64,000 nt of DNA from Candidatus Panguiarchaeum symbiosum (GTDB lineage: Archaea; Asgardarchaeota; Njordarchaeia; Njordarchaeales; Panguiarchaeaceae), in NCBI GenBank assembly GCA_024720975.1, contig JANJXX010000003.1, positions 1-64,000 on the forward strand, read 5' to 3'. Both the position numbers and the translations under genes were made by a program. Below are positions 6,182-35,050 of the stretch, in pieces. How positions within the stretch are numbered: the stretch's first letter is position 1; each line of letters begins with the position of its first letter. The notes below the pieces were generated by a model. The model ran no database searches and was not told where the DNA came from. It saw nothing but the letters and a program-made list of their open reading frames with translations.

Positions 6182-6189
6182 TGTGGTGT

Positions 6190-10876: not shown

Positions 10877-12859
10877 GTGTGCAATACCTTGAATAAGACC
10901 GTCTTTTGTCCACGAGATTGCTATGACACTTGCATATATGAGGTTAAGTATGATCCAGAGCCCAAGCTCATCCACACAGGCAAACCAACGATTAAACTAT
11001 CATGCCCTAGAGCTGAGAAAGATTTTGCTAGAGTGTCATCACCCGATCGCATCCTACACCCGTATATTGCTGTAAGCAAAAGGGAGGGAAAAAGGAAAAG
11101 AGTCTCCTGGTCATATGCTATAGGACTCATTGTTAATAAGCTTAAGGAAACACTTAAGGCCTATGGTGCTAGCAGAATTCTCTTTCTAGACTACGCAGGT
11201 AATCGAGGGATTTTCACACGATACTTAGCACAACGCCTTTGGTATTTTTTAGGCGCTGCCAGAGTGGACTATACAATCTGCAATGGGGCCGGTGCAAGGG
11301 CACTTATGTTACATTATGGGAGCACATATGGTGCATTACCTCAGCACATGGAACAAGCAAACATCCTCGTCTACTGGGGATTTAACGCTGCCATAACAAG
11401 TCCACACAATTTTTTCTATGCCCTTAGCTTGAGAGAACGCAAGCATGTGAAGATAATAACCATTGATACATTAAAGACAGAAACTGCAAAGCTCTCAGAT
11501 ATATGGCTACAGCCTCGATATGGGACGGACACATATCTCGCCCTTGGAATTGCCAGTTACTTGATACAGAACGAACTATACGATCGAGAATTCATTGAGA
11601 AACATACATATGGATTTGAGATGTTTAGAAAGTATGTGAGGGGTCTAGACCTCAACACTGTTTCAAATAAAACTAAAATACCGAAGGACGATATAATTGA
11701 ATTTGCTGAACTTTACAGCGAGAAAAAGCCAAGCATAATATTTATAGGCTATGGTCTTCAGAGGAGAATTGGTGGAGGCGAGGCAGTAAGGGCAATATCA
11801 CTTCTTCCTGCGCTAATAGGGATCCACAGAGGCTTCTACTACTCAAATACTGACGGACTGCTAATAGACATACAGTATCTAACGGGATCATTTTTAGGAG
11901 TACCATCTAGAATAATACCGCAATCAAAAATAGGGGAATACATATACAATGGTGAGTTCAAGTTTATATACATACACTTAACAAACCCAGCTGCAACGCA
12001 TCCAAGAGCAGATCTAATAAGAGAAGGCCTGCTTAGGGATGACGTCTTTGTAGTTGTACATGAAACTCATTGGAGTGACACTGCAAAACTAGCTGATGTT
12101 GTTCTACCAGCACCCACTTGGCTCGAAAAGCGTGATGTCGTATTTAGCTTCTGGCACAACTATATAGGATTCAACAGACCAGTATTAAATAAACCTAACA
12201 CATTAAAAACCGAGCTAGGGGTCATGAGATTGATTGCTAAGGGCCTCAATATAAAAGAGAAACTGATATACGAGAGTCCAGTGAGAGCACTTATCAAAGC
12301 CATTGGTAGGAGTATCTACGAAGAACTTATTACAAAAGGTTTTACTACACTTCCCTATCGCAAACTTAACGAGTACCAAACACCATCTGGCAAGATAGAG
12401 TTCTATAGTAATAAGGCAAAGGAATTCAACCTCAGTCCATTGCCTAAGCCAATCGAAGTACATCCCCCGCCAGACTACCCATACATACTCATATCATCTG
12501 CCCATCCAAGGTATACTCACACGCAATTTGAGGATGTCTATGGTCCCATACCACCAATAATCGAGATATCAGAAGAAGACATGGAGAAGCTATCAATAAC
12601 TGATGGAGAAAGTGTGATTGTAAGCAGCAAAAATGGGAGCGTTGTACTAATGGCTAAAGAGAGTGATAGAGTTCCACCTGGGGTGGTATTTGCGTATAGA
12701 TCATGTAAAACTCTCGACGGGAAAAGATTGAACTGCATAACAAACGACGAGACAAATGAACTTGGAGGAGCTACAATAAACACAACATTTGTATCAATAA
12801 TTCCACTTCGTTGCACTAATACATCCAAATTCAAAAGTCTTGTCTCCTATGAGGAGTAG
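10877..12859 (+). CDS. Molybdopterin (bis-MGD) oxidoreductase, DMSO reductase superfamily
   Basis: 660 aa. N-terminal FeS motif CPRDCYDTC...LSCPRA; later HETHWSDTAKLADVVLPAPTWLEK and C-terminal MoCo-binding region. Confidence 0.85.
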   Translation: MCNTLNKTVFCPRDCYDTCIYEVKYDPEPKLIHTGKPTIKLSCPRAEKDFARVSSPDRILHPYIAVSKREGKRKRVSWSYAIGLIVNKLKETLKAYGASRILFLDYAGNRGIFTRYLAQRLWYFLGAARVDYTICNGAGARALMLHYGSTYGALPQHMEQANILVYWGFNAAITSPHNFFYALSLRERKHVKIITIDTLKTETAKLSDIWLQPRYGTDTYLALGIASYLIQNELYDREFIEKHTYGFEMFRKYVRGLDLNTVSNKTKIPKDDIIEFAELYSEKKPSIIFIGYGLQRRIGGGEAVRAISLLPALIGIHRGFYYSNTDGLLIDIQYLTGSFLGVPSRIIPQSKIGEYIYNGEFKFIYIHLTNPAATHPRADLIREGLLRDDVFVVVHETHWSDTAKLADVVLPAPTWLEKRDVVFSFWHNYIGFNRPVLNKPNTLKTELGVMRLIAKGLNIKEKLIYESPVRALIKAIGRSIYEELITKGFTTLPYRKLNEYQTPSGKIEFYSNKAKEFNLSPLPKPIEVHPPPDYPYILISSAHPRYTHTQFEDVYGPIPPIIEISEEDMEKLSITDGESVIVSSKNGSVVLMAKESDRVPPGVVFAYRSCKTLDGKRLNCITNDETNELGGATINTTFVSIIPLRCTNTSKFKSLVSYEE

Positions 12860-15341: not shown

Positions 15342-16253
15342 ATGAATGTAAGGGAGGAAATTCTTAACCTTAAGAGAGAGCTGAACGCTGCTATCTTAGC
15401 CCACAACTACCAGCCGTATGAAGTACAGGAAATAGCTGACTTCGTGGGAGATTCATTAGAACTCTCTCTACTCTCAACGAAATTAGATGCTGAGGTTATT
15501 GTATTTGCTGGAGTAAGATTCATGGCCGAACAAACTAAGGCTCTTAACCCTAACAAGAAGGTCCTAATGCCAATTCCTAGTGCCCTTTGCTCGCTTGCGA
15601 GTTTGGTCACTGTTGAGATGATAAAGGAGTATAGAGAAAAATATCCGGGCGCACCACTAGTCGTGTATGTGAACTCTCCCATTGAGGTAAAGGCAGAAGC
15701 TGACTACATAGTTACGTCTGCCAATGCCACGAAGCTTATCTCAAAGCTGAATTCAGACACAATTTTATTCTCTCCTGATGCAAATTTAGCTCATTATGTT
15801 GCTAAGGTTACGGGAAAGAAAGTTATTGCAATTCCACCAACTGGACACTGCTACGTACATTTACTAATAACTCCTTATGACATTCTGGAGGCAAAAAGAA
15901 AGTATCCAGATGCTATAGCTTTGGTTCATCCTGAGGTGCCGCCGGAGGCTCAAGAACTCGCCGATTATATTGCTGGAACTTCTGGTATGATAAAATTTGT
16001 CTCACGGAGCGACCACAAGAAATTTCTTATAGGCACGGAGACTGGAATGTTAAACAGACTTAGGAGAGAATTTCCTGATAAGGAATTTTATCCAATAGTT
16101 CCCAATGCTGACTGTATTGGAATGAAAAAGATAACACTTGAGTCTATATATTATAGTCTTAAGAACCTCGTCTATGAAGTTGTAATAAAGGAGGAGTACA
16201 TGCATAAAGTTCGTCGAGCTCTCGATAGGTCATTTGAAATCTTAGGTGTTTGA
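15342..16253 (+). CDS. nadA: Quinolinate synthase
   Basis: AILAHNYQPYEVQEIADFVGDSLELS, VYVNSPIEVKAEADYIVTSANA, GTETGMLNRLRREFPDKEFYPIVPNADCIGMKK. Confidence 0.95.
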   Translation: MNVREEILNLKRELNAAILAHNYQPYEVQEIADFVGDSLELSLLSTKLDAEVIVFAGVRFMAEQTKALNPNKKVLMPIPSALCSLASLVTVEMIKEYREKYPGAPLVVYVNSPIEVKAEADYIVTSANATKLISKLNSDTILFSPDANLAHYVAKVTGKKVIAIPPTGHCYVHLLITPYDILEAKRKYPDAIALVHPEVPPEAQELADYIAGTSGMIKFVSRSDHKKFLIGTETGMLNRLRREFPDKEFYPIVPNADCIGMKKITLESIYYSLKNLVYEVVIKEEYMHKVRRALDRSFEILGV

Positions 16254-17112
16254 TTTGTTGCCAGAGATTTTTGCAAAAAAATTTTTGGAATGGCTTGAAG
16301 AGGATGCACCATACGACGACATAACAACAATGCTGTTGGATAATGAGTGCTTTGAGGCTATATTATTGGCAAAGAGTGATGGTGTTGTAGCTGGATTGGA
16401 TCTGTTAGCAGAGACTTTGATTAAGTTTGGACTCCATGTTGAACAGTTTAAGAGAGATGGAGAAGAGTTTTCTAGCGGGGTAATATTGGCAACGATACGA
16501 GGGGACGTGAGAAAAATCCTGACGTTTGAGCGCACGCTGCTCAATATATTGAATAGACTGTGCGGGATCGCCAGACTAACAAGAATGGTTGTGAAAAAGG
16601 CCAAGGCGGTGAACCCTAATGTAAGAATCGCTGCAACTAGAAAGACTACACCAGGTTTAAGATTTCTGGAGAAGTATGCAGTTAGCGTTGGTGGTGGAGA
16701 CACCCACAGGTTTAGCCTGAGCGACCAGATACTTATAAAAGATAACCATGTACGTGCCATAGGAAGCGTAGAGGAGGCTATCAAAAGAGCTAAAAGTAAA
16801 GCTAGCTTCTCCCATAAAATCGAGATAGAGGTTTCATCTGTTGAGGACGCCTTAAAGGCAGCTGAGCTTGGTGCGGACATAATAATGCTAGATAACATGT
16901 CCCCAGGGGAGATAAGACTTGTAGTCAGCGAGCTTAAGAGGAGAGGATTAAGAGACAGAGTACTCCTGGAGGCATCAGGCAGAATAAATTTAGAAAATAT
17001 CGAAGAGTATGCTTCCACCGGAGTTGATGTGATATCTCTAGGAATAATTACACATTCGGCACCATCATGCGATATTAGTCTAGAACTTACGAAGCAGTGC
17101 ACGACCAGGTAG
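16246..17112 (+). CDS. nadC: Nicotinate-nucleotide pyrophosphorylase (carboxylating)
   Basis: RTLLNILNRLCGIARLT, AATRKTTPGLRFLEKYAVSVGGGDTHRFSLSDQILIKDNH; overlaps nadA. Confidence 0.95.
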   Translation: MFDLLPEIFAKKFLEWLEEDAPYDDITTMLLDNECFEAILLAKSDGVVAGLDLLAETLIKFGLHVEQFKRDGEEFSSGVILATIRGDVRKILTFERTLLNILNRLCGIARLTRMVVKKAKAVNPNVRIAATRKTTPGLRFLEKYAVSVGGGDTHRFSLSDQILIKDNHVRAIGSVEEAIKRAKSKASFSHKIEIEVSSVEDALKAAELGADIIMLDNMSPGEIRLVVSELKRRGLRDRVLLEASGRINLENIEEYASTGVDVISLGIITHSAPSCDISLELTKQCTTR

Positions 17113-17173: not shown

Positions 17174-19159
17174 CTATTCTTTGTTAGTGCTACTTGATGC
17201 CGTAGGTAGCACTGAAGGGGCTTGAACTAAGAGTGCATCTATCATCGAGATTATCTGCTTGGGCTCGTTGTTAGTAAGTATTATTGCACCCGATGGGCAT
17301 GCTGCAGCACAAGTACCGCAGCCTTCGCAAGCTGCATCAATGATCTTAGCTCCCTCTGGTGTCATTTCGATAGCGTGATATGGACATAATTGTACACATA
17401 CTCCGCATCTAGAGCACGGCTCTTTGTTCACTCTTGCTATCAGGGGCTCCCTCTCTATGTAATCTTTGGAGAGAATTTCTACTGCTTTCTTTGCTGCTGC
17501 ACTGGCTTGCGCTACAGAGTCCTGTATATCTTTAGGACCTTGTGCCACTCCCGCTAGGAATATTCCTTTTATTGGCGATTCTACCGGTGCCAACTTTGGA
17601 TGTAGTTCTTGTAGAAAGCCGTTTTCATCCAGTGGTATCCTAAGCACATTTGCTATCTCTTTTGTATTGGGTACTATTCCTGTTGCCAGAACAACCATAT
17701 CAAATGGGAGGGTCATTGGTTTTCCAGTTATTGTATCAACCGCATGCACTATTAATTGATCTCCTTTTTGAACTATCTTTGAAACTCTTCCACGGATGTA
17801 TTTCACCCTACCCTCTTGCTGAACTCTCATGATGAATTCCTCATATTTCTTTCCTGCAGCCCTTATATCAATGTAGAATATGTATGCCTCACCATCAGGC
17901 ACCAAGTGCTTGTATAAAAAGGCGTGTTTGGCCGTGTACATACAACATATTCTAGAGCAGTAAGGTAAATGCTGAAGGTCTCTCGATCCAACACACTGAA
18001 TAAATGCTATCCTCTTGGGAATTTTACCATCACTGGGTCTTCTAAGTTCGCCTCCTGTTGGTCCTGTAGACGATATTAACCTCTCAAATTGAAGGGAATC
18101 TATAACATCCTCCAGTCTTCCGTAACCGTATTCTCCAATTTTTTCCTTTGGATATAAATCGTAGCCAGTTGCGACAATTATCGCTCCCACGTCCTCTTCA
18201 ATAATCTCCTCCTTGTCAAAGAGGTTTATCGCCTTTTGTTCACATACCTTCGCACATTCATTGCAGCGAGCTGTTCCAACACCGTGACAATGACTGGCGT
18301 CTATAACGTAAGCTGCAGGAATTGCTTGCGGGAAGGGTATGTATATCGCTTTTCTCACGGTTAGGGACCGGTTATAGTCCTTATCAAGAACTATCTGTGG
18401 GCAGACTTTTTCGCATTCACCACACATGTTACAGGCTCCTATATCAACATATCTGGGATTCTTTCGGATCTTGACCTTAAAGTTACCAATTGAGCCGCTT
18501 ACTTCTATAACCTCAGAGAGAGTATATATTTTAATGTTTGGATTTCGTGCGACCTCGGCCATTTTGGGTGTTAGAATACATTGAGCACAATCAAGCGTTG
18601 GAAAGGTTTCAGATAGCTGTGCCATTCTGCCACCTATCGTTGGGGACTTCTCGACAAGTATTACTTCAAATCCGTTATTGGCTACATCTAGGGCAGCTTG
18701 TATTCCAGCTATGCCTCCGCCTATGACTAAACACTTTTTCTTTACACTGCTTCTAACTTTCTCTAGGGGTTGGTCTCCAGCAACCTTGTTTACAGCACTC
18801 CACATGATTCCCAATGCCTTTTTAGTAGCTTCATTTACATCATCATGAACCCAACTATTCTGCTCCCTTATATTCGCCATCTCAACCTTGTACGGATTTA
18901 ACCCAGCACTGACGGCCGCAGTTCTGAATGTCTCTAGATGCATACTTGGCGAACAAGCAGCAACAACAATACCCGTTAGCCCATGTTTCTTTATGGCCTC
19001 ACGAATGATATTTTGTCCAACACTTGAGCACATATATTTGTACTCTTCAGCGTGGACTACAAGCGGATGTTTTCTTATTTTATCAACAACTTCCTTGACA
19101 TTGACTGCCCCAGCTATGTTTCTTCCGCAGTGACAAACAAATACTCCTATTCTCTCCAA
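17174..19159 (-). CDS. hdrA: Heterodisulfide reductase subunit A (FAD, multi-FeS)
   Basis: 661 aa: VCHCGRNIAG, CLVIGGGIAGIQAALDVA, DCAQCILTPKM, CNMCGECEKVCP, C-terminal double ferredoxin CSRCGVCVQLCP / CEGCGTCAAACP. Confidence 0.95.
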   Translation of the reverse strand: MERIGVFVCHCGRNIAGAVNVKEVVDKIRKHPLVVHAEEYKYMCSSVGQNIIREAIKKHGLTGIVVAACSPSMHLETFRTAAVSAGLNPYKVEMANIREQNSWVHDDVNEATKKALGIMWSAVNKVAGDQPLEKVRSSVKKKCLVIGGGIAGIQAALDVANNGFEVILVEKSPTIGGRMAQLSETFPTLDCAQCILTPKMAEVARNPNIKIYTLSEVIEVSGSIGNFKVKIRKNPRYVDIGACNMCGECEKVCPQIVLDKDYNRSLTVRKAIYIPFPQAIPAAYVIDASHCHGVGTARCNECAKVCEQKAINLFDKEEIIEEDVGAIIVATGYDLYPKEKIGEYGYGRLEDVIDSLQFERLISSTGPTGGELRRPSDGKIPKRIAFIQCVGSRDLQHLPYCSRICCMYTAKHAFLYKHLVPDGEAYIFYIDIRAAGKKYEEFIMRVQQEGRVKYIRGRVSKIVQKGDQLIVHAVDTITGKPMTLPFDMVVLATGIVPNTKEIANVLRIPLDENGFLQELHPKLAPVESPIKGIFLAGVAQGPKDIQDSVAQASAAAKKAVEILSKDYIEREPLIARVNKEPCSRCGVCVQLCPYHAIEMTPEGAKIIDAACEGCGTCAAACPSGAIILTNNEPKQIISMIDALLVQAPSVLPTASSSTNKE

Positions 19160-19161
19160 TC

Positions 19162-20040
19162 TTATCCCTCCTTTCCGACCATTCTATCTAATAGGTTCTT
19201 AATTTCTGGTTCGAGCGCATCATCTAATCCAAAAGCATAGGCTATAAGTTCAGAAACGTAAAGAATTGGTAGCTCAAGGCCTCTAAGCTCTTTTCTTCTT
19301 CTCTTCTGGCCCTCCTCAAGATTATACGCACATAGTGGGCATGTGGTCACAATGAGCTTTGCACCATAGTCACTAGCGGACTTAACGATCTCCTTCGCTC
19401 TATCCCAAACGTATTCTGGTGCGCTGACAACATTAAAACTTCCGCAACACTCATTTCTATATGGGTAATCGACTGGATTTGCATTGAGCCTTAGCAGCAG
19501 TTCCTCTATAATTACTGGATCTTCCGGATCATCTATTGCAACCTCTCTGGGTCTGAGAATCAAACAACCATAGAATGATGCTACGTTTAATCCTTTCAGG
19601 TTTCTTTTGACCTTATCTCTTATTTTATCATACCCGAGGATATCACGCAGAATCTCCAGAAAATGCATTATTCTCAGTTTTCCCTCATAGTTAGAGGGTT
19701 CGTCGGATAGGAATGCATTTAATTTCTGGGCTGCATCTGGATCATTCTTGTATAGGTTGTCCGCCATTTTAAGGACGTGATTACACATAGAGCATAAAGT
19801 CAGAAGGATGTTCTCTGTATTACTCTTTTTCATTGTTAGTTCTGACCTTATGAGAGTTCTTATGGAAGCGACAGCTTGGATCACTGTATCTTTAGGTAGA
19901 TTGTAGGTCGCACCGCAACAAATCCAGTTTTCGACTTCAATGGGCTCTATACCTAGTACTCTTAATACCTGCAGTGATGCTTTTTCGTCTCTCAATGCTG
20001 TCGCTTTAACTGTGCATCCAGGGTAGTACAGAATCCTCAT
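19162..20040 (-). CDS. hdrB: Heterodisulfide reductase subunit B
   Basis: Two CCG-type cysteine motifs: YYPGCTVKAT...WICCGATYN...LCSMC and FYGCLI...NECCGSFN...TCPLC. Confidence 0.93.
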   Translation of the reverse strand: MRILYYPGCTVKATALRDEKASLQVLRVLGIEPIEVENWICCGATYNLPKDTVIQAVASIRTLIRSELTMKKSNTENILLTLCSMCNHVLKMADNLYKNDPDAAQKLNAFLSDEPSNYEGKLRIMHFLEILRDILGYDKIRDKVKRNLKGLNVASFYGCLILRPREVAIDDPEDPVIIEELLLRLNANPVDYPYRNECCGSFNVVSAPEYVWDRAKEIVKSASDYGAKLIVTTCPLCAYNLEEGQKRRRKELRGLELPILYVSELIAYAFGLDDALEPEIKNLLDRMVGKEG

Positions 20041-20049
20041 ATAATCACC

Positions 20050-20415
20050 TCATGTGTACTTCCTACCAGCGGCAACTAGGGCTATCGGAGGAAGCTTCTC
20101 TAGATCCTCAACTTTTCTTAGATCAATTGTTTGTTGTTGGGCTCTAACCTTAATTGTTCTAAGTCCTTCCATAATTCTGGCGACGTCAAGATTTCGCGGA
20201 CATCTGACTGAGCAAGTGAAGCATGTGGCGCATATCCATATAGATTTTGCATTGAGTGCATTCATATCATTTAGTTGAACCATATGGATTACTTGGTAGG
20301 GAAGATGGTCCATTTTATCTGCCATCGGACAACCAGCACCACATTTGCCACAGAAATAGCATAAATATACATCTTCTCCCGTTATCTCAAGGATTTTATC
20401 TGCCAGATTTGTCAT
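20050..20415 (-). CDS. hdrC: Heterodisulfide reductase subunit C
   Basis: 121 aa with CYFCGKCGAGCPMADKMDHLP and CATCFTCSVRCPRNLDVARIMEGLR. Confidence 0.93.
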   Translation of the reverse strand: MTNLADKILEITGEDVYLCYFCGKCGAGCPMADKMDHLPYQVIHMVQLNDMNALNAKSIWICATCFTCSVRCPRNLDVARIMEGLRTIKVRAQQQTIDLRKVEDLEKLPPIALVAAGRKYT

Positions 20416-20972
20416 TTCTTTTCACTCTCCACAAGCTTCCTACCATATTCATATCCTACTTCAAAGGCTCTCACGTTTAAATCTACATATCGACCTCTTA
20501 CCCCTTCTATAACGCTCCTCTTTACAGTCTCCTTATCGATTAAGTTAGATATTGCCGTGAATGCACCTATCATTACAATGTTGGCAACAATCCTCCTACC
20601 GACGCTTTCAGCCATTTTTGTGGCTGGAACTGCATAAATCTTTGCTTTTTTAGCTCTTTCGTCAAGTGTTACAAGATCATTGTCATATATAAGAACTCCA
20701 CCAGGCTTCAATAGATCTATGTATGAGTCATAAGCCTCTTGATACATAACTATTAGATAATCTGCATTTCTAACTAGTGGACAATCTACTTCCCTCTCAC
20801 AATCAATGACAACTCTAGAGGCGCATCTACCTCCTCTTGCTTCTGGACCGTAACTTGGAAGATATGTTGAATTATATCCTCTCAACATTGCGGCGTTTCC
20901 GAGTATCCAACCGGCGAGCAGTATTCCCTGTCCTCCGAATCCTCCAATCAGAATTTCTATCCTACTCATCAT
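20412..20972 (-). CDS. korC: 2-oxoacid:ferredoxin oxidoreductase gamma subunit
   Basis: IGGFGGQGILLAGWILGNAAMLRGYNSTYLPSYGPEARGGRCASRVVI is the diagnostic gamma-subunit motif. Confidence 0.92.
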   Translation of the reverse strand: MMSRIEILIGGFGGQGILLAGWILGNAAMLRGYNSTYLPSYGPEARGGRCASRVVIDCEREVDCPLVRNADYLIVMYQEAYDSYIDLLKPGGVLIYDNDLVTLDERAKKAKIYAVPATKMAESVGRRIVANIVMIGAFTAISNLIDKETVKRSVIEGVRGRYVDLNVRAFEVGYEYGRKLVESEKK

Positions 20973-22414
20973 GATCGCCCTATTGTTTTTATAAGTTCTC
21001 CGTTTGAGTTGTAAATGCTAACATAAACCCTTATTCCGCCTGGAATGCTATGTGTCGAACACGCTAAGCATGGATCATAAGCCCTAAACGCCATTTCTAT
21101 CATGTTTAATACTTTGTCATCGAATTTACCAGCTGTTAGAAGCTTTGAGGCAACCTTCTTTATGTCTAGGTTTATTGATGAATTATTCATTGTTGTAGGG
21201 ATTATCAAATTCACTTTAGTAGTTATTCCTCGCTCATCCGCCTCGTAATGATGTATTAAGAGACCACGAGGAGCTTCAACCACTCCGACGCCAAAGCCAC
21301 TGAATTTACCATCATAGTTTACGACATCCCTAGACAACAATTCGCTATCCTCCACAAGCTCAAACATTCTTTCAGCTGCATACACCATCTCTATAGCCCT
21401 AGCGAAATGATATGCCATCGTATGATGAGCAGGTTTTCCAAAGGTTTCTACGAATTGTTTGTAGTACTCTTGTGCTTTCTCTGTTGCAAAGCCGTTGGAG
21501 GCGTTCAACCTGCCCAAAGGACCAACTCTATATATTCCGCTACTCGTATCAATTCCCCTCCACCCAATCTTTTTCAGATATGGCATCTTTGTGTAGCTCC
21601 ATTCAACAACTTTTTCTCCGATGTAATCTAGATAATCTTTGGGCTCGAAGACAAAGGCCTCGTTTCCTTTCTTATCAACAACTCTAATCCTACCATCGTA
21701 GAAGTTCAACTTATTATTCTTATCCACGAGACCTGCGTAATATGTTTCCAGATGATAGTAATCCCCAAAGATTATGTCCTTATACTCACTCCTTTGCAGA
21801 ATTCCATTGAGAAGCTCAACAGTCTCCGTCGAGAACTTAAGAAGCTCCTTTGCATAATTCCTAATTTCCTCGACCTCCTCCTTGGAGAGAGATTTACTTA
21901 CGCCGCCGGGAATCGCAGTCACAGGGTGTATGGCTTTTCCTCCGATAATTTCCTCAATCCTAACAATTTTATCTCTCATCTCAAGAACTTTCTTAACCAA
22001 TTCAGGATTACTTTTGTATAGACCTACTAAACTCCGCTCTCGCCTGGGAGCGCCTGGTGACAGAGCAAAATCTGGTAGTGCTAATGCGTATAGATGAACT
22101 GAGTGACTGTCTAATATATGTGCGCAATAACCCAGTTCCCTTATTTTCTTAGCAGCAGGCGTAGGTTCTCTGCCAAATACCATGTCGACGGCCTTTGCTG
22201 ATGCCATGTGATGAGCCCATGGACAGACTCCACAGATTCTGGTTACTATTCCTGGTAGTTCTTCTACGGGTCTTCCAACGCAGAATTTCTCGAAGCCTCT
22301 AAACTCGAGTACTTGAAAGAATGTATCCTTTACTTTCCCTTTTTCATCCAGAAATATCTTTATCTCAGCTTCTCCTTCAAGCCTTGTCGCCGGACTGATT
22401 TTAATTATGCTCAT
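20969..22414 (-). CDS. mvhA: [NiFe] hydrogenase large subunit (Mvh/F420-non-reducing-like, group 3)
   Basis: L1 RICGVCPWAHHMASAKAVD and L2 DPCLACSTH followed by a C-terminal extension. Confidence 0.92.
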   Translation of the reverse strand: MSIIKISPATRLEGEAEIKIFLDEKGKVKDTFFQVLEFRGFEKFCVGRPVEELPGIVTRICGVCPWAHHMASAKAVDMVFGREPTPAAKKIRELGYCAHILDSHSVHLYALALPDFALSPGAPRRERSLVGLYKSNPELVKKVLEMRDKIVRIEEIIGGKAIHPVTAIPGGVSKSLSKEEVEEIRNYAKELLKFSTETVELLNGILQRSEYKDIIFGDYYHLETYYAGLVDKNNKLNFYDGRIRVVDKKGNEAFVFEPKDYLDYIGEKVVEWSYTKMPYLKKIGWRGIDTSSGIYRVGPLGRLNASNGFATEKAQEYYKQFVETFGKPAHHTMAYHFARAIEMVYAAERMFELVEDSELLSRDVVNYDGKFSGFGVGVVEAPRGLLIHHYEADERGITTKVNLIIPTTMNNSSINLDIKKVASKLLTAGKFDDKVLNMIEMAFRAYDPCLACSTHSIPGGIRVYVSIYNSNGELIKTIGRS

Positions 22415-23400
22415 TCTCTCCTCACCATTCTAACCAAGCGGCTCAAACCCAGTGTGAATCTATAAAATAATCCTGCTGGGTCCATGATTGTAACTCTCTT
22501 GGATAATTCATCATCTGAGAGCTTAGGTTCATTCTCTATTTCCACCAATGACGGTAAAGCACTAACAAGCTTAGCTCCAACATCGTATATATTCGGAGCC
22601 GGGCCCATACAGCCTCTACAAGGCATATTAGCCTTTATGCATGGTGAACCGCATCCACCTCTAGTAGCTGGACCAAGGCATATAGCTCCTTGAGCCAAGA
22701 AACACTTGCTCGGATCTAACCTTACTTCGTGAATCCTCTTAAATCTATCTATGACTATTTTCTCGGGCTTTTCCCTCGGGCACTCATCACAAAGAGTTCT
22801 TGTCCCAGCAATGACTGTTCCCTTTTCTAGACTTATTCTCCCCTCAAAGTACTTGATAAGCTTGTTTACAGCCTCTGAAATTATCTCCTTAGGCGGCGGA
22901 CAACCTGGCACGTATACATCAACATCAATAAAATCATCGACTTTATAATTAATCTCAACGAGTTTGGGAGCGGTAATTTTATATGGATTTGCCTTGCTTT
23001 CACCTGGGAGTATCCTTTCCTCGTTGATAGTTGATGGTGACTTTAAGTAGGCTTCATTAAGAACCTCTTCAAGCTTGTATAAATCGGCAAGACTTTGCAC
23101 TCCACCAAAGCATGCACATGCACCAAATGCAACTTTAATCTTAGCCTTGCTAGCAACTCTTTCTATGATCTCCTTGTGTTTTTCTGTTCTGATGCTTCCC
23201 TGGAAGAGTGCTATGTCTATGCTTTCTAACTCATCGAGATCTTCTTCCTTAAAATCCATTGCTATGGGCCAGAAAACTATATCAGCCAGGCCAATAACAT
23301 CAATTAAGTTCTTATGCAGATCAACTAGTGCCATGTCACAACCGCCGCAAACTTCTCCAGGAACGACAGCTATCTTGAGCTTTCTACTCATGTTTATCAC
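22411..23400 (-). CDS. mvhG: [NiFe] hydrogenase small subunit (MvhG-like)
   Basis: CGGCDMALVDLH, FGACACFGG, PGCPPP, CLGPATRGGCGSPCIKANMPCRGCMGP. Confidence 0.92.
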   Translation of the reverse strand: MINMSRKLKIAVVPGEVCGGCDMALVDLHKNLIDVIGLADIVFWPIAMDFKEEDLDELESIDIALFQGSIRTEKHKEIIERVASKAKIKVAFGACACFGGVQSLADLYKLEEVLNEAYLKSPSTINEERILPGESKANPYKITAPKLVEINYKVDDFIDVDVYVPGCPPPKEIISEAVNKLIKYFEGRISLEKGTVIAGTRTLCDECPREKPEKIVIDRFKRIHEVRLDPSKCFLAQGAICLGPATRGGCGSPCIKANMPCRGCMGPAPNIYDVGAKLVSALPSLVEIENEPKLSDDELSKRVTIMDPAGLFYRFTLGLSRLVRMVRRE

Positions 23401-23821
23401 CTAAGGGACCAAGTTTCCTTATCTCTTCAGTAAATTCTCTAGCCACCTCGGCAAACTTTTTGCCTTCCGTAGCAGAAATCCATTCAAGCCTGATTCTCTG
23501 TGGCTCTATACCAATCTGCCTTAGGAGTTCTTTCATAACAGAAACTCTTTTCAAGGCCTTGAAATTACCCCTAAGGAAGTGACAATCACTAGGAGTGTGG
23601 CATCCTCCTATCAGTACACCATCCGCTCCCATTTCAAAAGCCCTAACAATAAACTGCATGTCGACACTTCCAGAGCATGGAACTGTTATAGGAAGGATGT
23701 TAGCTGGATACTTCAGCCTGCTAACACCAGCAAGGTCGGCGCCGGCTGATGCACAATACTTGCACAGGAATGCAATTATCTTAGGCTCCCAATTCTTATT
23801 CCTCTCTTCCATTAAAAACAC
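23384..23821 (-). CDS. mvhD: Methyl-viologen-reducing hydrogenase delta subunit (MvhD/FlpD-like)
   Basis: FLCKYCASAGADLAGVSRLKYP, PCSGSVDMQFIVRAFEMGADGVLIGGCHTPSDCHF. Confidence 0.93.
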   Translation of the reverse strand: MFLMEERNKNWEPKIIAFLCKYCASAGADLAGVSRLKYPANILPITVPCSGSVDMQFIVRAFEMGADGVLIGGCHTPSDCHFLRGNFKALKRVSVMKELLRQIGIEPQRIRLEWISATEGKKFAEVAREFTEEIRKLGPLGDKHE

Positions 23822-23842
23822 CTAAGGACTAAAGTTGAGGAC

Positions 23843-24700
23843 TTATTGCAGATCACTTCTCCTTAATTCTTTCTGTGCTATTTCAATCAGTCGCCTTATC
23901 CTATCATCAAATGACTCCTTCCCTTCAATCTTAACAAACTCTCCTATTATAAATTTCTTACCCCATACAATATCTGCTTCACGAGGATCTGGATTTTTAA
24001 CATAAACCGCATTTTCTTTGAGATATCTGAGGTTGTCGAGAGGGTCTGGAAGGGCATTCCTTCGTCCAAAATCTGTTGGGCAGGTAGATATAACCTCTAT
24101 GACTCTAAAGCCCTTCATTTGAAATGCTGTTTTGATACTTTCAGTAAGATTACGCAAATGATACACTGTCCACCTAGCAACATAAACTGCACCACTTGCT
24201 GCGGCCAGCCAGACGGCATTAAATGGTGGCTCAGTGTAGTTTCCATATGGCGTAGTTGTTGTTCTCACGCCTTCTGGTGTTGTTGGTCCCACTTGTCCTC
24301 CGGTCATACCATAGTTAAAGTTATTCACTAATATCACTAGTATGTCGACGTTTCTCCTCGCAGCATGTATAAAGTGATTTCCTCCTATTGCTAGTAGATC
24401 ACCATCACCAGAAATTACCACTACATGCAGGTCTGGTCTAGCTAATTTAAGACCCATAGCAAATGGTATTGGTCTACCATGCGTCGTATGAAAGCCATCG
24501 TAGGCCCAGTAACCACTCGCACGCCCGGAGCAGCCAATTCCAGAAACAATCACAACTTTCTTTGGATCAATATTTAACTCCTCTATTGCCTTTGCAAATG
24601 CATTAAATATCATCCCCATACCGCAACCAGAGCACCATATGTGGGGGAGTCTTTCTGATCGGACAAATTTTTCTATAGGATGTACTAGCGCCGTGATCAT
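23843..24700 (-). CDS. korB: 2-oxoacid:ferredoxin oxidoreductase beta subunit (TPP-binding)
   Basis: WCSGCGMGMIFNAF, GIGCSGRASGYWAYDGFHTTHGRPIPFAMGLKLARPDLHVVVISGDGDLLAIGGNHFIHAARRN. Confidence 0.93.
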   Translation of the reverse strand: MITALVHPIEKFVRSERLPHIWCSGCGMGMIFNAFAKAIEELNIDPKKVVIVSGIGCSGRASGYWAYDGFHTTHGRPIPFAMGLKLARPDLHVVVISGDGDLLAIGGNHFIHAARRNVDILVILVNNFNYGMTGGQVGPTTPEGVRTTTTPYGNYTEPPFNAVWLAAASGAVYVARWTVYHLRNLTESIKTAFQMKGFRVIEVISTCPTDFGRRNALPDPLDNLRYLKENAVYVKNPDPREADIVWGKKFIIGEFVKIEGKESFDDRIRRLIEIAQKELRRSDLQ

Positions 24701-25852
24701 TTACTTCACCTCTAAAATTTTCCCGAGCACCTCCTCTGGGAAGATCCATCTACCACCATAATTCCCAACCCAAAAAACTTCAGACCTTCCTTTTGAAGCC
24801 CTTTCGACCTCTCGTGTTATCTGTCCTTCATTAATTTCGGCTACGATGAATTTCTTGACTTTTTTAGCGAGCTCAAAGATAACTTCATCAGGGAATGGCC
24901 AAATTGTTTTGAGCTGCAAAAAACCGACTTTTATCCCTTCCTTTCTAGCCATATCAACTGCACTCTTTGCACTTCTAGCTGCAGATCCATAGGAGACTAC
25001 AACTATATCAGCATCCTCGCACTTATACATCCTATAATCAATTATCTCATGCTTTCTCTTACGTATCTTGTCCAACAACCTTCGCACTAGTACATTTTGC
25101 ACCTCTGGATCCGCTGAGGGATATCCTCTCTCGTCATGGGTTAGGCCTGTCGATTGTATTCTGAAGCCCTCCCCAACTGGTGCCATTGGTGGAACTAAGT
25201 CGTCATCTGCCTTGTATGATAGGTAACCATTTGGATCTTTGGCAAGCTTTCTATTAATTATTATAACATCCCTTGGATCAGGAACGACAACTTTTTCATA
25301 CATGTGTGAAATGCCTTCATCAGCTAGTATTATTACTGGCGTTCTGAACTTTTCTGAGAGATTAAACGCCATTATTGTTAGATCGAAAGCCTCTTGCACA
25401 GTGCTCGGCGATAGAGCTATTATTTCATACGGACCATGAGATCCCCACTTGGCTTGCTGAACATCACCCATACCTATCATCGTTGGTATGCCCGTTGATG
25501 GACCAGCCCTTTGCACGTCCACTATTACTATTGGAACCTCCATCATTACAGCTAAACCTATGTTTTCCTGCATAAGTGAGAATCCTGGACCTGATGTAGC
25601 AGTCATTGATTTTAGTCCTCCCCACGAAGCACCGATTATCGATACTATAGAAGCTATTTCATCCTCCATCTGCACAAATATCCCTCCAACCTGAGGAAGG
25701 CGCCAAGATAGTCTTTCAGCTATTTCATTTGATGGCGTTATCGGATAGCCCGCATAGAACCTACAACCAGCAAATATTGCTGCCTCGGCTATAGCATCAT
25801 TTCCACTCCAGAAATACATCCCAGGTTTAACTTCTCCCACCAAATTCATCAT
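24701..25852 (-). CDS. korA: 2-oxoacid:ferredoxin oxidoreductase alpha subunit
   Basis: GNDAIAEAAIFAGCRFYAGYPITPSNEIAERLSWRLP, TATSGPGFSLMQENIG, VDVQRAGPSTGIPT. Confidence 0.93.
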   Translation of the reverse strand: MMNLVGEVKPGMYFWSGNDAIAEAAIFAGCRFYAGYPITPSNEIAERLSWRLPQVGGIFVQMEDEIASIVSIIGASWGGLKSMTATSGPGFSLMQENIGLAVMMEVPIVIVDVQRAGPSTGIPTMIGMGDVQQAKWGSHGPYEIIALSPSTVQEAFDLTIMAFNLSEKFRTPVIILADEGISHMYEKVVVPDPRDVIIINRKLAKDPNGYLSYKADDDLVPPMAPVGEGFRIQSTGLTHDERGYPSADPEVQNVLVRRLLDKIRKRKHEIIDYRMYKCEDADIVVVSYGSAARSAKSAVDMARKEGIKVGFLQLKTIWPFPDEVIFELAKKVKKFIVAEINEGQITREVERASKGRSEVFWVGNYGGRWIFPEEVLGKILEVK

Positions 25853-26165
25853 CTGATTCTATCGGAACACTAAATATTGCAAAGTCAGGGCATATAAGAG
25901 AACAAAAACCGCAAGCTATACACACCTTAAGCGGGGGTTCCTCAACAACAACAGGATAATGATAACCCCTCTCATTGACATCCTCAGACTTCACAAGAAC
26001 CTTTGAAGGACAATTATCAATACAGAACCCACATTCCTTGCACCGCTCCTTGATAATATAAACCTTCCCCCTCCTTATTGGTACCCTCCTCTGCTCAATA
26101 ATCTTTATTCTCCTCTCCTCCTCGAGCTCGGCCAAACTTTTACGGAATGACATTTCAAGCACCAT
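25827..26165 (-). CDS. korD: 2-oxoacid:ferredoxin oxidoreductase delta (2[4Fe-4S] ferredoxin) subunit
   Basis: CKECGFCIDNCPSKVL and CIACGFCSLICPDFAIF; overlaps korA. Confidence 0.9.
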   Translation of the reverse strand: MVLEMSFRKSLAELEEERRIKIIEQRRVPIRRGKVYIIKERCKECGFCIDNCPSKVLVKSEDVNERGYHYPVVVEEPPLKVCIACGFCSLICPDFAIFSVPIESDDEFGGRS

Positions 26166-26181: not shown

Positions 26182-26372
26182 TAACGAAGACGAAATAAAT
26201 ACAGATTTTATATACATAGACAAATACACAAGGAAAACTCAATAAATTGCCAATCCGTCAGGATTATCCTAAACAACCTTGCATGCAATATTTAATGATA
26301 ATGCTCAATAAGGAGTTTTATATAGCGCAAAAGATGCTCTCTTTTAATTAGAAAAACCGAAAGGTTAGCCTC

Positions 26373-27184: not shown

Positions 27185-30100
27185 CTAGGTTTTCAACGCT
27201 AGTTCCTTTCTTATGAGCTCAACTATGTACTCTTTCCTATCAGGGGCCTTGTACTTGAATATGCCTTTCTCAATGAGCTTCAGTATCTTTATTACCTCTC
27301 TCACTTGCCAGGGTAGAGACCACCATGAAATGAGCTTATAACTACCGTAGGCAAACATCACCAGGAGTATTGTCAGCATTGGATACAGGAACATGTTAGC
27401 GATGTATATATATCCGATGCCTGGTATGTGTATTCTTGTGGAGCCTGATAAGTAATCCACCGCTACTACATACTTTAGAATATCATAGACGAATTTGTCA
27501 GCCGGTATCTCCCGGCCGTACATTTTCACGGACTTTACAAAGATTACTACTTCCCACTTATATCCTGGTGGAAACACACCCCAATCAACCACGATCCTGA
27601 ACACTCCAGCGCCTATCCTAGTGGCACTGTATATTCTAAACATTTCGGCCTCTATACTACTAACGTTCGCAATCACTACTGCATCATCAACTGGGAGATT
27701 TCCGTGATATACAAAGACGTCGATTTCTGTGATTTTATGCTCGTCTATAAATTGAATCCTAGTGATTTCTTGTGGAGGTTCTTTTGCCACAGTTATTTCG
27801 ACAGAAAACTTGTCTATTATTAATGTAATTATCTCTTTTTGTTCTTGGTGATACTGTTTCAAGAAGTACAACTCTATCTTGATTGATATGGGTAATTGAA
27901 TGTCAGTTCCCAAAACACCTGACAGCATTTCCAGTATTTGAACCGTATCAATTTTTAGCACATAGGAACCGACTTTACTGTCAAATACGAGAGTGCCCCT
28001 ATATAGGACGTTTTCTCCATAATATATTATGTAGGTGGCATTAGCATCAGTAATGGCTTGAACTTCACCACCCTTATAGCAGAAATATGAGATGCTCATA
28101 TTGAGATATTCGCCATATTCAAGTGCAATATCTTTTTGCGGAACGATGAGATACGTCGGTACAGAACTTATCGTTAAGGATATCTCCAAACGTTGTGTCT
28201 TGTAGTTCTCCTTGAATAGTGTAACTATTATTCTATAGTTACCCGTGCTCATATTATGTGTAAAGTTCAACTTTAGCAGGTAATCGCTCCCATATGGTTC
28301 TAACTCACCAGTCCGAACCGGGGTATCTTGTCCGAAAGGTAACACCATATAACTAGCTATCGCTCCGATTATTTTTTGTGGTGGTGAAGTCTCACTATCG
28401 TAATAGGATAAGAGTATGTAAGAGGTGTCACCCCATATTAGCTCTATTGATGTTGCGTTTGCCGTGGCAAATGTTTTTCTCGGGTTTATTTTTATCATTA
28501 TTGAGAGAAATCTTCCCTCGTAGTATTCTTTGCTGAAGTAAATCCTAGCCGTGAACTCGCCAACACCTAATTGGTGTACTGGTATGCTGAACATATATTT
28601 AGAATCTGTTTCCACCAGACTGCCTTCAGCCAGGAGCTCTTGCGTAATTGGATTAATTATTTCGAATCGAGTCACTGCATTTGAAACAAGCACTCTCCTT
28701 CTACTATCGTTATAATAAATCGACAAATTGTAGTTTTCCATTTGCCATGGTGTTTCCACATATGTCTGACTGAATAGCTCAGTTGGTCTTGGGTTAACCA
28801 CTAGCGTTATGAAATATTCTGATTTTGAGTAGTTTCCTTTGGATGCTGTGATAGTTATCATATACGCTCCGGTTGGGTATTTGAATGATGACAACGCAAA
28901 TATATACTCGTTGTCTTGCTGTACTAACATCCCCTCAAAGGATGTTGGTCCGGAGAACAAAATTCTAACACTTGCATCAGGTAAATAACTGTCATTCAAT
29001 GCATCCTGGAAGTATAATCTAACGCAAAATTCTTCGTCCCAGTATATGGTAGATGTTAACGCTGCCACTACAATTTTTGTGGGTCTAGGTTGAACCATTA
29101 CTGCAATTAAAAGCGGTTGTGGTCGCTGGTACTTATTGCCATATGCGTCAATAAAGTATTCCCTTCCACCAACTGTTGTTGTATTGACATCTATTACCAG
29201 GTAGTACATCTCCCCAGCTGGTAGTCCATATGTTGATATGTTAATACTGTATGTGCCCAGGGATACCTTACACATTTTTAGAGTGCCAAATCCCGGAACT
29301 ATTGTACCATTCTTCGCATAAACAATCTTCCATGTTACATTATCAGCGGCATCTACAAGGTTTACTTCGCTTATTATTGCCACCTTAGTGTATATGTTAC
29401 CTCCCCAATACAGGCTATATGAGTATGAACCTTCTCTAAGCTCTATTCTAAGTGGGGGAGGAGCTGTCGCATCAAGATCTATGAGAATCCATGTTTGACC
29501 TTGGGTCACATTGATGAGAGCCCATCTAACCATTGTTATATTATTACCATAAATGTCTTTCACGGGAGTCTTGTTAGTATAAGTTAAATTGTAGCTGTCG
29601 AAGTCAAATTTGTAGCTTACGGTTATGTTCCAAATGCCCCTTGGGATGTACACATCAAGATGTCCAGTAAGGTTGGTACTCGCGTAAGCTATTGTTTCAT
29701 TGAATCGAACCAGAGCTCCTTGGAGTATCCTCCCTTCCGTGTCATTGCATTGTATAATCACTCTTACTAGGTGGGGGAACTGGTAGAAACTACTTATCGA
29801 GAATGTTGTATATGGTATCGTCGAAAGATCCAAATCCTCTACTATGCTGTGTATATTATTCGCACTAGAAAGTGTTATGTTTAGAGTGTAGTTATCGTAT
29901 CTAGGAACATCGAACGTTACTTTTCCTGACCAATCTGTATAGCCCGCACTGACTATAGCTTCGGATGTTTTGTTAACCAATGTTACTTGTGCATTAACAA
30001 CTGGACCATTATCTCCATCCGCCACATTATAGGTTACTTGCAAAGTGAATCGCTCAGTTTGAGCTATTGATATTAGTAGTGGGGCTCGAAGTCTTAAAGC

Positions 30101-32658: not shown

Positions 32659-33396
32659 TTGGTGAATCTATTGCAAGATAAGACTGAGCAGATACCAATG
32701 AAAGAGGTTAAGCCTCGCATGGTTACTATTTACTACATGGGGAAGGCTTACCAAGTTCCTGAAGGAATAACTATTATCAAAGCTCTGGAGTACATCGGTT
32801 ACAGGTTGGTGCGAGGTGTTGGATGCAGGAGTGGATTCTGTGGTGCTTGTACTACGTTCTATCGGAAGAAAAATGACTATAGACTGTATTCGGGTTTAGC
32901 TTGTCAGACTCCAGTCGAGGATGGCATGTACTTAACGCAACTACCCTTCATTCCGGCTGAGAGGAGAAGATATAGGATTGAGGACGCCAAGGCTGATTTT
33001 CATTTTGTGCTGTCTCTTTATCCTGAGATTGCTAGGTGTGTTGGATGCAATTCATGTACTAGGGTTTGTCCTCAAGAGATACAAGTTATGGATGCCGTTC
33101 AGGCGATACTCAGGGGTGATCTAGCAAAGGCTGCAAAAATGGTCTTTGATTGTATCTCTTGTGGGGCTTGTAGTATGAGGTGCCCTGCTGAGATTGTGCA
33201 TTACAATGTCTTCCAACTTGTTAGGAGGTTGTATGGTAAGTATATTGCTCCAAAGGCGAAGCATTTAGCAAGTAGGGTTGAGGAGATACAAAACAATTAT
33301 TACGAGGAACAATTTAAGAAGCTGTTCTCCATGAGTGTTAATGATTGGAAGGTTTTGGCGGAGAAGCTTCAGAAGAAGGAGAGTATAACCATATGA
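32659..33396 (+). CDS. Succinate dehydrogenase/fumarate reductase-type iron-sulfur subunit
   Basis: N-terminal [2Fe-2S] CRSGFCGACTTF...C, then CVGCNSCTRVCP and CISCGACSMRCP; followed 1 nt later by the flavoprotein gene. Confidence 0.85.
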   Translation: MVNLLQDKTEQIPMKEVKPRMVTIYYMGKAYQVPEGITIIKALEYIGYRLVRGVGCRSGFCGACTTFYRKKNDYRLYSGLACQTPVEDGMYLTQLPFIPAERRRYRIEDAKADFHFVLSLYPEIARCVGCNSCTRVCPQEIQVMDAVQAILRGDLAKAAKMVFDCISCGACSMRCPAEIVHYNVFQLVRRLYGKYIAPKAKHLASRVEEIQNNYYEEQFKKLFSMSVNDWKVLAEKLQKKESITI

Positions 33397-33397
33397 G

Positions 33398-35050
33398 GTG
33401 AAGAAAATGAAGCATCCGGGTTACCCGCCTGAATTTTGGGACTCAATAGAGAGAGTTGAAGAAACTCGCGATAAGAGGCTAAAAGAGAAATTTCCAAAGA
33501 TGTCGGTGACTGAAAGAGAGGATATTGTACGCAAATATCACCCAGATTACAAGGAGGGTACAAAGAGGCCTGTTCGCGTTGGAGCCTATAAGGGTCAGCT
33601 AGCACCTCATGAGGTCGCAGATTTGCTTGAGGCTCATGCCTTGATAAACCCAGATGACGTAGATTTAAGCAATGTAGACTATGACACTGACGTATTAGTT
33701 ATAGGCGGCGGTGGTGCTGGGGCATCTGCAGCATTGTGGGCTAATATAAGTGGTGTTCCGGCAGATCAAATCTTAATAGTCACAAAGCTAAGATTTGGAG
33801 ATTCAAACACGAAGGGAGCCCAGGGTGGTATACAAGCGGCTGATAGAGAGTATGACTCTCCCATATACCACTTCCTGGATGTACTATATGGAGGTCATTT
33901 TACGAATGATCCAGAACTCGTAAAAATTCTTGTCACTGAAGCACCACTAATAATAAAATTCCTAGAGGACTTAGGTGTTATGTTTGATAAAGAATCTAAC
34001 GGAGTAATGATCGAGGTTTCAGGTGGAGGATGTAGCAGAGACCGCATGCACTCCTGTGGTGATTACACAGGACTTGAAATAATGCGCGTATTAATGGACG
34101 AAGTTCTCAATAGAGGGATACCAGTCCTAGAATTTTCTCCTGCTGTTGAGCTCATAACTGATGACCGAGGGCAAGTAGCAGGAGCTGTTGTTATGAATCT
34201 TGAGACAGGAAGATACCACGTGGTACGTGCTAAAGCAACAATAATAGCAACTGGTGGCTTTGGAAGGCTACACATACAGGGCTTTCAAACATCTAATCAC
34301 TACGGAGCAACTATGGATGGCGTCGTTTTGGCTTACCGAGTTGGAGCTCAATTGAGAGATATGGATGCTGTTCAATATCATCCAACTGGTGCAGCGTGGC
34401 CTCCCCAACTCGCTGGTCAGCTAGTAACTGAAAAAGTGCGCTCGTTAGGTGCCCAGCTAGTAAATGTCAATGGCGAGCAATTCGTATACGAGCTAGAACC
34501 AAGGGATACTGTATCTGCTGCTATAATTCGCGAGTGTGAAGAGAGGAAGAGGGGCATAAAGACTATAGTGGGTTGGGGCGTTTGGCTGGATAGCCCGATG
34601 ATCGAGATAATACATGGTGAGGGAACTATAGAAAAATTCTTACCGGCGATGTTTAGGCAATTTAGGAGGTATGGGATTGACATAAGAAAGGAGCCAATAT
34701 TGACCTATCCAACACTCCACTATCAAAATGGAGGTATTCTGATAAACCAGTACACGCAGGTCCTAGACGCCGAAAGAAAACCAATACCTAATCTATTCGC
34801 TGCTGGTGAATGCACAGGTGGTGTACATGGAAAGAATAGGCTAATGGGCAATAGTCTACTAGAGATAACAGTATTTGGTCGTCGTGCAGGAAATTTTGCA
34901 GCTAAACATGTGAAGAATGTCTCCCTTGGTAAGCTAACATTAGATCATGTAACCAAATGGGAGAATATGCTCAAAGAAGCCAAGATAAGAAGCAGTAAGA
35001 AGGCACCAATAATTCTTCCGGACTATCGAGGAGACATGATATTTAGGTAA
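33398..35050 (+). CDS. Fumarate reductase/succinate dehydrogenase-type flavoprotein
   Basis: DTDVLVIGGGGAGASAALWA, SNTKGAQGGIQA, DAVQYHPTGAAWP, HYQNGGI, LFAAGECTGGVHGKNRLMGNSLLE. Confidence 0.88.
   Translation: MKKMKHPGYPPEFWDSIERVEETRDKRLKEKFPKMSVTEREDIVRKYHPDYKEGTKRPVRVGAYKGQLAPHEVADLLEAHALINPDDVDLSNVDYDTDVLVIGGGGAGASAALWANISGVPADQILIVTKLRFGDSNTKGAQGGIQAADREYDSPIYHFLDVLYGGHFTNDPELVKILVTEAPLIIKFLEDLGVMFDKESNGVMIEVSGGGCSRDRMHSCGDYTGLEIMRVLMDEVLNRGIPVLEFSPAVELITDDRGQVAGAVVMNLETGRYHVVRAKATIIATGGFGRLHIQGFQTSNHYGATMDGVVLAYRVGAQLRDMDAVQYHPTGAAWPPQLAGQLVTEKVRSLGAQLVNVNGEQFVYELEPRDTVSAAIIRECEERKRGIKTIVGWGVWLDSPMIEIIHGEGTIEKFLPAMFRQFRRYGIDIRKEPILTYPTLHYQNGGILINQYTQVLDAERKPIPNLFAAGECTGGVHGKNRLMGNSLLEITVFGRRAGNFAAKHVKNVSLGKLTLDHVTKWENMLKEAKIRSSKKAPIILPDYRGDMIFR

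Follow-up and report, generated by a model that had tools for sequence, protein, structure and literature searches.

The first 64 kb (hereafter the window) of the 149,542-base contig JANJXX010000003.1 from the Asgard archaeon Candidatus Panguiarchaeum symbiosum, whose assembly GCA_024720975.1 comprises 1.36 Mb and is 81% complete, contain a run of ten minus-strand open reading frames (ORFs) between positions 26165 and 17174. In the order korD-korA-korB-mvhD-mvhG-mvhA-korC-hdrC-hdrB-hdrA, these ORFs interleave the genes for a 2-oxoacid:ferredoxin oxidoreductase (Kor), a [NiFe] hydrogenase (Mvh) and an electron-bifurcating complex of the heterodisulfide reductase type (Hdr; Table 1). According to Pfam and NCBIfam, their products belong to the ferredoxin/KorD, POR_N, TPP_enzyme_C, FlpD (MvhD), Oxidored_q6, NiFeSe_Hases, POR (gamma), Fer4 (HdrC), CCG (HdrB) and HdrA families, respectively. 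The ten genes, their order, strand and coordinates, as well as the 4-nucleotide (nt) overlaps of korC with mvhA and with hdrC, had already been described in a first-pass annotation of the window and were all recovered from the ORF list and the family models. The whole analysis was carried out at the sequence level, with G000 denoting the window's own genome and G001 that of the other species of the genus.

The genes are tightly packed: korD and korA overlap by 26 nt, korA and korB adjoin with 0 nt between them, korB and mvhD are separated by 21 nt, mvhD and mvhG overlap by 17 nt, a further 4-nt overlap joins mvhG and mvhA, and hdrC/hdrB and hdrB/hdrA are spaced by 9 nt and 2 nt, respectively. 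With junctions ranging from -26 to +21 nt and terminator-like sites in the operon region at the level of shuffled sequences (5 versus 5.6, i.e., no excess), the single transcription unit proposed at the outset is supported and would be the simplest reading. A candidate TATA box, picked out by eye about 45 nt before korD, is the sole promoter put forward for this operon, and the 3' end of hdrA lies 61 nt from the convergent gene nadC. Because exactly the same ten-gene order is found in G001 (L033), with 81% identity for KorC as well as for MvhA, the arrangement is neither an assembly error nor an accident of one genome, and chance or an assembly artefact could thus be ruled out.

Table 1. Genes of the kor-mvh-hdr operon, its putative promoter element and the separate frdBA genes in the window
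Feature	Position	Strand	Predicted product or role	Evidence
TATA box	26206..26214	-	candidate archaeal TATA box (TATATAAAA)	by eye
korD	25827..26165	-	two-cluster ferredoxin subunit	ORF; two CxxCxxCxxxC motifs; best NCBIfam match OGOR_delta, below cut-off
korA	24701..25852	-	alpha subunit	POR_N and PFOR_II; PRK08659 551 bits (cut-off 411)
korB	23843..24700	-	thiamine pyrophosphate (TPP)-binding beta subunit with [4Fe-4S] cysteines	TPP_enzyme_C; GDGD..NN, CSGC and GIGCSGR motifs
mvhD	23384..23821	-	[2Fe-2S] link from hydrogenase to HdrA	FlpD 172 bits; aligns to MvhD of 7bkb (7bkb_F) and 5odc, cysteines kept
mvhG	22411..23400	-	[NiFe] hydrogenase small subunit	Oxidored_q6; full-length alignment with 5odc MvhG
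mvhA	20969..22414	-	[NiFe] hydrogenase large subunit	NiFeSe_Hases; nickel motifs RICGVCPWAH at 59 and DPCLACSTH at 447
korC	20412..20972	-	gamma subunit, between mvhA and hdrC	POR 130 bits; TIGR02175 93.3 (cut-off 81.1)
hdrC	20050..20415	-	short-form electron carrier with two clusters	eight cysteines in two motifs; aligns to 5odc HdrC 22-105
hdrB	19162..20040	-	two-CCG subunit, 292 aa	ten cluster cysteines, two C-x(n)-CC-x(n)-CxxC motifs; aligns to solved HdrB
hdrA	17174..19159	-	flavin adenine dinucleotide (FAD)-dependent bifurcating subunit that carries ferredoxin domains but is not fused to MvhD	HdrA2 model 816 bits
frdB	32659..33396	+	FrdB-like Fe-S subunit, 245 aa, outside the operon	Fer2_4 and Fer4; [2Fe-2S] and two [4Fe-4S] motifs
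frdA	33398..35050	+	TfrA-like fumarate reductase flavoprotein	highest-scoring model TfrA with 343 bits (cut-off 718)

All cofactor motifs that were checked in the operon products are intact. The parts of an MvhADG-HdrABC complex are present throughout, i.e., the [NiFe] ligands, an HdrA with FAD and ferredoxin domains, a CCG-type HdrB, a two-cluster HdrC and MvhD. The match of HdrA to its counterpart in 5odc (5odc_A) extends over residues 3-641 with 659 bits, the four-cysteine motifs are present, and Lys409 of the 5odc protein, which sits near the flavin, aligns with a lysine in the window HdrA. Likewise, alpha, beta (with TPP), gamma and delta (with two [4Fe-4S] clusters) subunits of a four-subunit 2-oxoacid:ferredoxin oxidoreductase were found with their motifs. 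Amongst solved structures, KorA is nearest to 1yd7 and then to the 2-oxoglutarate synthase alpha chain 8ys5, and KorB matches best to 8ys5_C, a 2-oxoglutarate ferredoxin oxidoreductase beta subunit. At the relatives' loci L042 and L157, the slot taken by korC in the window holds a gene for a HycI-like hydrogenase maturation protease.

A search of 59 genomes of the phylum with KorC and inspection of the neighbourhoods revealed that the arrangement is not specific to one genome, as linkage of Kor to Hdr recurs beyond the genus. Family f12 has the order hdrCB-korDABC-hdrA-mvhDGA, one f18 genome (G053) korDABC-hdrA-mvhDGA-hdrCB-frdBA, and in G005 korDABC stands divergent from hdrA-mvhDGA-hdrCB-frdB. 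A second, distinct interleaving (korB-x-hdrCB-korD) is found in G003, a member of the same order as the window genome, where frdB lies 2.4 kb off on the opposite strand. In other f18 genomes (L039, L041) the order is korDABC-mvhD-hydB-hydG-hdrA-hdrCB-frdBA, an NAD(P)H-type module replacing the mvhG and mvhA of G053; this swap within one family suggests exchangeable electron donors. The linkage in f6 is weak, with hdrBC about 1.8 kb from kor across a gap and with at least nine HdrB-like copies in the genomes concerned, and an hdrA-korDABC contig of G009 was not counted for gene order, this genome being 12% contaminated and its Kor grouping with that of f9. Amongst 80 relatives of MvhA, a Bathyarchaeota locus (L069) carries korDABC-hdrA-mvhDGA, and a bacterial contig (L070, 258-21455) carries hdrA, mvhD, mvhG, mvhA, frdB, frdA, sucC, sucD and kor along one strand, its first, HdrA-like gene encoding 1503 aa. 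As both loci were retrieved via MvhA, their linkage to Mvh is given by construction, whereas that of the other genes (frd, suc and kor) is not; the predicted products on the bacterial contig cover the complete fumarate-to-2-oxoglutarate arm. In a KorA tree the Hdr-linked Kor proteins fall into one clade with moderate support (Shimodaira-Hasegawa-like approximate likelihood ratio test, 89), and the unlinked Kor proteins of f2, f10 and f15 fall outside. The functional coupling of Kor to Mvh-Hdr put forward in the first-pass annotation is thus backed by recurrent linkage in other Asgard families and in Bathyarchaeota, and judged from gene order it is very probably real.

A possible electron acceptor of HdrB is suggested by a further pair of genes in the window. 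Searched against the same relatives, the window HdrB retrieves 19 sequences that score above 200 bits, of which it is one, after which the scores drop to 144. When this search was seeded with HdrB, frdBA (or frdB up to the contig end) was found directly downstream and on the same strand at 14 of the 18 testable loci of this clade, related genomes being counted as separate; the remaining four are the two operons of the window genus, one Mvh-Hdr set of G002 and the locus of G003. In an HdrB tree the clade associated with Frd has a support of 100/100, and the window HdrB is nested inside it. In the window genome, frdA is the only gene for a protein of the FrdA/NadB family, and a separate NadB was not found in that genome. 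The dicarboxylate-site motifs of FrdA (HPTG, TE, PRD, LHY/LHF and NRL) are kept in all relatives in an alignment that includes a solved SdhA, and an N-terminal extension of about 90 aa is conserved even in one bacterium but is missing from more distant FrdA/NadB-type matches, most of which start near residue 95. Directly after frdBA follows a second [NiFe] hydrogenase cluster, hydB-hydG-hydD-hydA (35180-39037, plus strand), which resembles the group 3b sulfhydrogenases.

With respect to the pathways in which these enzymes might take part, SucCD is present in the genome above the curated cut-offs, as are both the alpha and the beta subunit of fumarase, while no citrate synthase was found in G000, with its 81% completeness, or in G001. 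From this context, namely SucCD and Frd in the genome and sucCD beside kor on the bacterial contig, the substrate of Kor is probably 2-oxoglutarate. McrA was not found anywhere in the 81% complete genome, nor was ComA in G000 or G001, which bears out genome-wide what the first-pass annotation had noted for the window, i.e., that no methanogenesis genes are seen. An operon rearranged in a methanogen was thus rejected on the basis of this 81% complete assembly, as was a coupling to the Wood-Ljungdahl pathway in the genus, CdhC being found in neither G000 nor G001.

The scheme that we prefer, and to which we give about an even chance, is as follows: the operon may encode an H2-linked, HdrA-based bifurcating module together with a dedicated Kor of four subunits, serving the fumarate-succinate-succinyl-CoA-2-oxoglutarate arm of an incomplete tricarboxylic acid (TCA) cycle. 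H2 would be split by MvhA, and the electrons, relayed by MvhG and then by MvhD, would arrive at the FAD of HdrA, where each pair would be split. The high-potential electron would run through HdrC, HdrB and FrdB to FrdA, where fumarate would be reduced to succinate; the low-potential electron would leave through the ferredoxin domains of HdrA and reach KorD and KorB, either directly or via ferredoxin, so that succinyl-CoA from SucCD could be carboxylated to 2-oxoglutarate. Of the elements of this scheme, the genes, their motifs, the structure of the operon, the recurring linkages of Kor to Hdr and of HdrB to FrdBA, and the occurrence of SucCD and fumarase are observed, whereas we infer on which substrate Kor acts, that fumarate is the acceptor behind HdrB, that the module runs reductively and that Kor touches Hdr at all. 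The first-pass annotation had left the substrate of HdrB as a disulfide or another compound and had not connected the frdBA pair of the window with the operon; a disulfide has no place in the present scheme, where fumarate via FrdBA appears to be the most likely acceptor instead, and a transfer of electrons from HdrB to FrdBA in this organism is considered rather probable. The oxidation of 2-oxoacids coupled to H2, also proposed at first, is one option only, as Frd, SucCD, Kor and the lack of citrate synthase fit a reductive synthesis of 2-oxoglutarate at least as well, and on these grounds the reductive direction seems to be somewhat favoured.

These considerations are accompanied by an estimate of the energetics, for which textbook potentials of +33 and -414 mV and an assumed ferredoxin potential of -500 mV were used. 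Calculated from standard potentials with no temperature correction, bifurcating fumarate reduction would yield about -70 kJ/mol at 1 atm H2, and, likewise uncorrected for temperature, about 0 kJ/mol at 1e-5 atm H2 with a high succinate/fumarate ratio. The reverse, H2-evolving direction would therefore be possible only at very low H2.

A number of observations weigh against this scheme. In the window, frdBA is located 6.5 kb upstream of korD, on the opposite strand and outside the operon, and in G001 it stands alone, away from hdrCB, the genes upstream of it on its contig being unrelated; because frdBA stands alone in the window genus, the inferred link from HdrB to FrdBA is weaker there than in the relatives. 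Moreover, an Mvh-linked HdrB of the same clade in G002 has no Frd beside it, a second HdrB copy of G001 lies at a contig end, and most Frd loci were retrieved through FrdA, a bias for which the HdrB-seeded search corrects. The Kor-linked HdrB of f12 is of a different type and has no Frd, so that linkage to Kor does not require Frd, and the Kor of G002, a member of the Hdr-linked Kor clade, sits away from Hdr. As the linkages of Kor and of Frd to Hdr overlap only in part, both claims have to be judged apart. Measured against the 2-oxoglutarate equivalog cut-offs of NCBIfam, the alpha subunit scores 400 where 579 would be needed, the beta subunit 251 where 364 would be needed and the delta subunit 58.5 where 125 would be needed, and the substrate assignment of Kor therefore rests on context. 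Finally, genes scored as missing could lie in the unassembled 19% of the genome.

The same parts might also run oxidatively, with Kor oxidising 2-oxoglutarate derived from glutamate, SucCD yielding ATP, FrdBA oxidising succinate and HdrA confurcating the electrons to H2 via Mvh for a syntrophic partner. The enzymes are reversible in principle, a confurcating, H2-evolving Hdr-Mvh has already been proposed for Asgard archaea (PMC9723677), and the free energy calculated for 1e-5 atm H2 with a high ratio of succinate to fumarate is close to zero or favourable; however, the process would be strongly endergonic at ordinary H2, a group-3b-type hydrogenase cluster is at hand as an alternative outlet for H2, and, no citrate synthase having been found in either species, the 2-oxoglutarate would need to be supplied externally or be derived from glutamate. 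Altogether, this oxidative course appears rather improbable. Still less probable is a reduction of a disulfide by HdrB (a thiol pair, lipoyl or protein disulfide) in the manner of the classical MvhADG-HdrABC, with Kor sharing only the ferredoxin pool and FrdBA being independent. The Asgard literature, which assigns Mvh-Hdr complexes to an 'unidentified heterodisulfide' (PMC11291895), is in line with it, as are the two intact CCG cluster motifs of HdrB, its alignment with methanogen HdrB and the position of frdBA outside the operon in the window genus, but it is at odds with the lack of McrA and ComA and with the ties of this HdrB clade to frdBA. As to lipoyl groups, genes resembling those for GcvH and lipoate ligase neighbour a more distant HdrB (C23, 144 kb) and not that of the operon. 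This second set, hdrB-hdrC-hdrA (L170; G000:C23, approximately 144.2-149.2 kb), lies beside GcvH-like and lipoate-protein-ligase-like genes and might represent a lipoyl-linked Hdr system. In the second Hdr cluster of G001 (L181; G001:C90:1-9990), a set of three [NiFe] hydrogenase genes with a subunit of the FrhB family (F420) precedes mvhD-hdrA-hdrA-hdrC-hdrB, which runs up to the contig end.

A different question is whether the superoperon reflects a supercomplex. Kor and Mvh-Hdr could be separate enzymes, co-regulated through a common ferredoxin and pathway and joined by diffusible ferredoxin, which would be compatible with either direction and has, in our estimation, balanced prospects of being right: clustering of pathway genes is common, and the cluster on the bacterial contig L070 includes sucCD, which needs no electron contact. 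On the other side, korC sits among the mvh and hdr genes and overlaps translationally with either neighbour, and hdrCB lies between korB and korD in G003; this interleaving is suggestive, though only suggestive, of a pressure for co-translation or assembly. A single physical machine of KorABCD, MvhADG and HdrABC with FrdBA docked on HdrB, bifurcating H2 and passing the low-potential electrons directly to Kor for the reductive carboxylation of succinyl-CoA and the high-potential ones to fumarate, is possible but doubtful. If true, one flavin would drive two redox steps of a reductive TCA arm in an Asgard lineage.

The idea of a Kor-Hdr complex is not new, as it has already been published for bacteria: kor and tfr genes are interspersed with flx-hdr in Thioflavicoccus mobilis and tubeworm symbionts, and a shared electron-bifurcating complex was proposed (Rubin-Blum et al. 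2019, PMC6315080). Features common to this cluster (korABCD, tfrAB, flxABCD-hdrABC) and the window are a Kor of four subunits, its interleaving with HdrABC, and a fumarate reductase of the Tfr/Frd type. However, it is bacterial, driven by NADH through Flx and accompanied by a full reductive TCA cycle with ATP-citrate lyase, whereas the operon described here is archaeal, has the MvhADG hydrogenase in place of Flx and korC inside the mvh-hdr stretch, and leaves frdBA outside. What is new is thus the hydrogen-driven archaeal form, no archaeal or hydrogen-driven version having been found in the open-access literature, with most subscription journals lying outside this search. Similarly, the 'succinate operon' of Pseudoclostridium thermosuccinogenes combines fumarase, Flx-Hdr and Frd, for which a bifurcating fumarate reductase was proposed (PMC7282089); here, too, Hdr stands beside a fumarate reductase with fumarate as the high-potential acceptor, but the system is bacterial and NADH-driven and, as described, has no Kor in the operon. 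All six subunits, their motifs and the bifurcating flavoprotein are shared with MvhADG-HdrABC of methanogens (5odc, 7bkb and related), from which the window system differs by the lack of MCR and ComA in the genome, a shorter HdrC, an HdrB of the Frd-associated clade and the Kor in the operon. FrdA has its nearest counterpart in TfrA of the Methanothermobacter thiol:fumarate reductase (TfrAB), yet scores far below the equivalog cut-off (343 versus 718), and FrdB and HdrB match the two halves of TfrB but are encoded by separate genes and not as a fused chain; the Frd of the relatives is linked to Hdr, whereas TfrAB uses the thiols of coenzymes M and B. The joining of a bifurcating Hdr to an oxidoreductase that fixes CO2 has a precedent in the Hdr-Fmd supercomplex (7bkb), in which the partner is formylmethanofuran dehydrogenase and the link is structural, whereas that between Kor and Hdr is known here from the genes alone.

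Of the other genes in the window, one for a probable secreted or surface protein of 1712 aa (27185-32323, minus strand) separates the operon from frdBA, and nadA and nadC (15342-17112, plus strand), named from their sequences, converge with hdrA. Farther away are a BsaWI-like restriction endonuclease with an N6/N4 DNA methylase next to it (5429-7029, minus strand), a protein of the aromatic amino acid lyase family with 625 aa (7612-9489, plus strand) and a molybdopterin oxidoreductase resembling the formate dehydrogenase alpha subunit (10877-12859, plus strand), which scores below the curated cut-off. Elsewhere in the genomes, a match to the ESCRT-II protein EAP30 is absent from G000 and G001, unlike in most genomes of the phylum (50 of 59 above cut-off, against none of 14 controls), a distribution that speaks for the phylum being that of the Asgard archaea.

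For the Asgard archaea, the association of HdrB with FrdBA makes fumarate a concrete acceptor, open to testing, for a single HdrB clade that occurs in several families, and the coupling of Kor to Hdr proposed for bacterial clusters of the reductive TCA cycle has a hydrogen-driven archaeal form. If this coupling is direct, 2-oxoglutarate could be made from H2 and CO2 independently of a membrane gradient, in the phylum that is closest to the eukaryotes.

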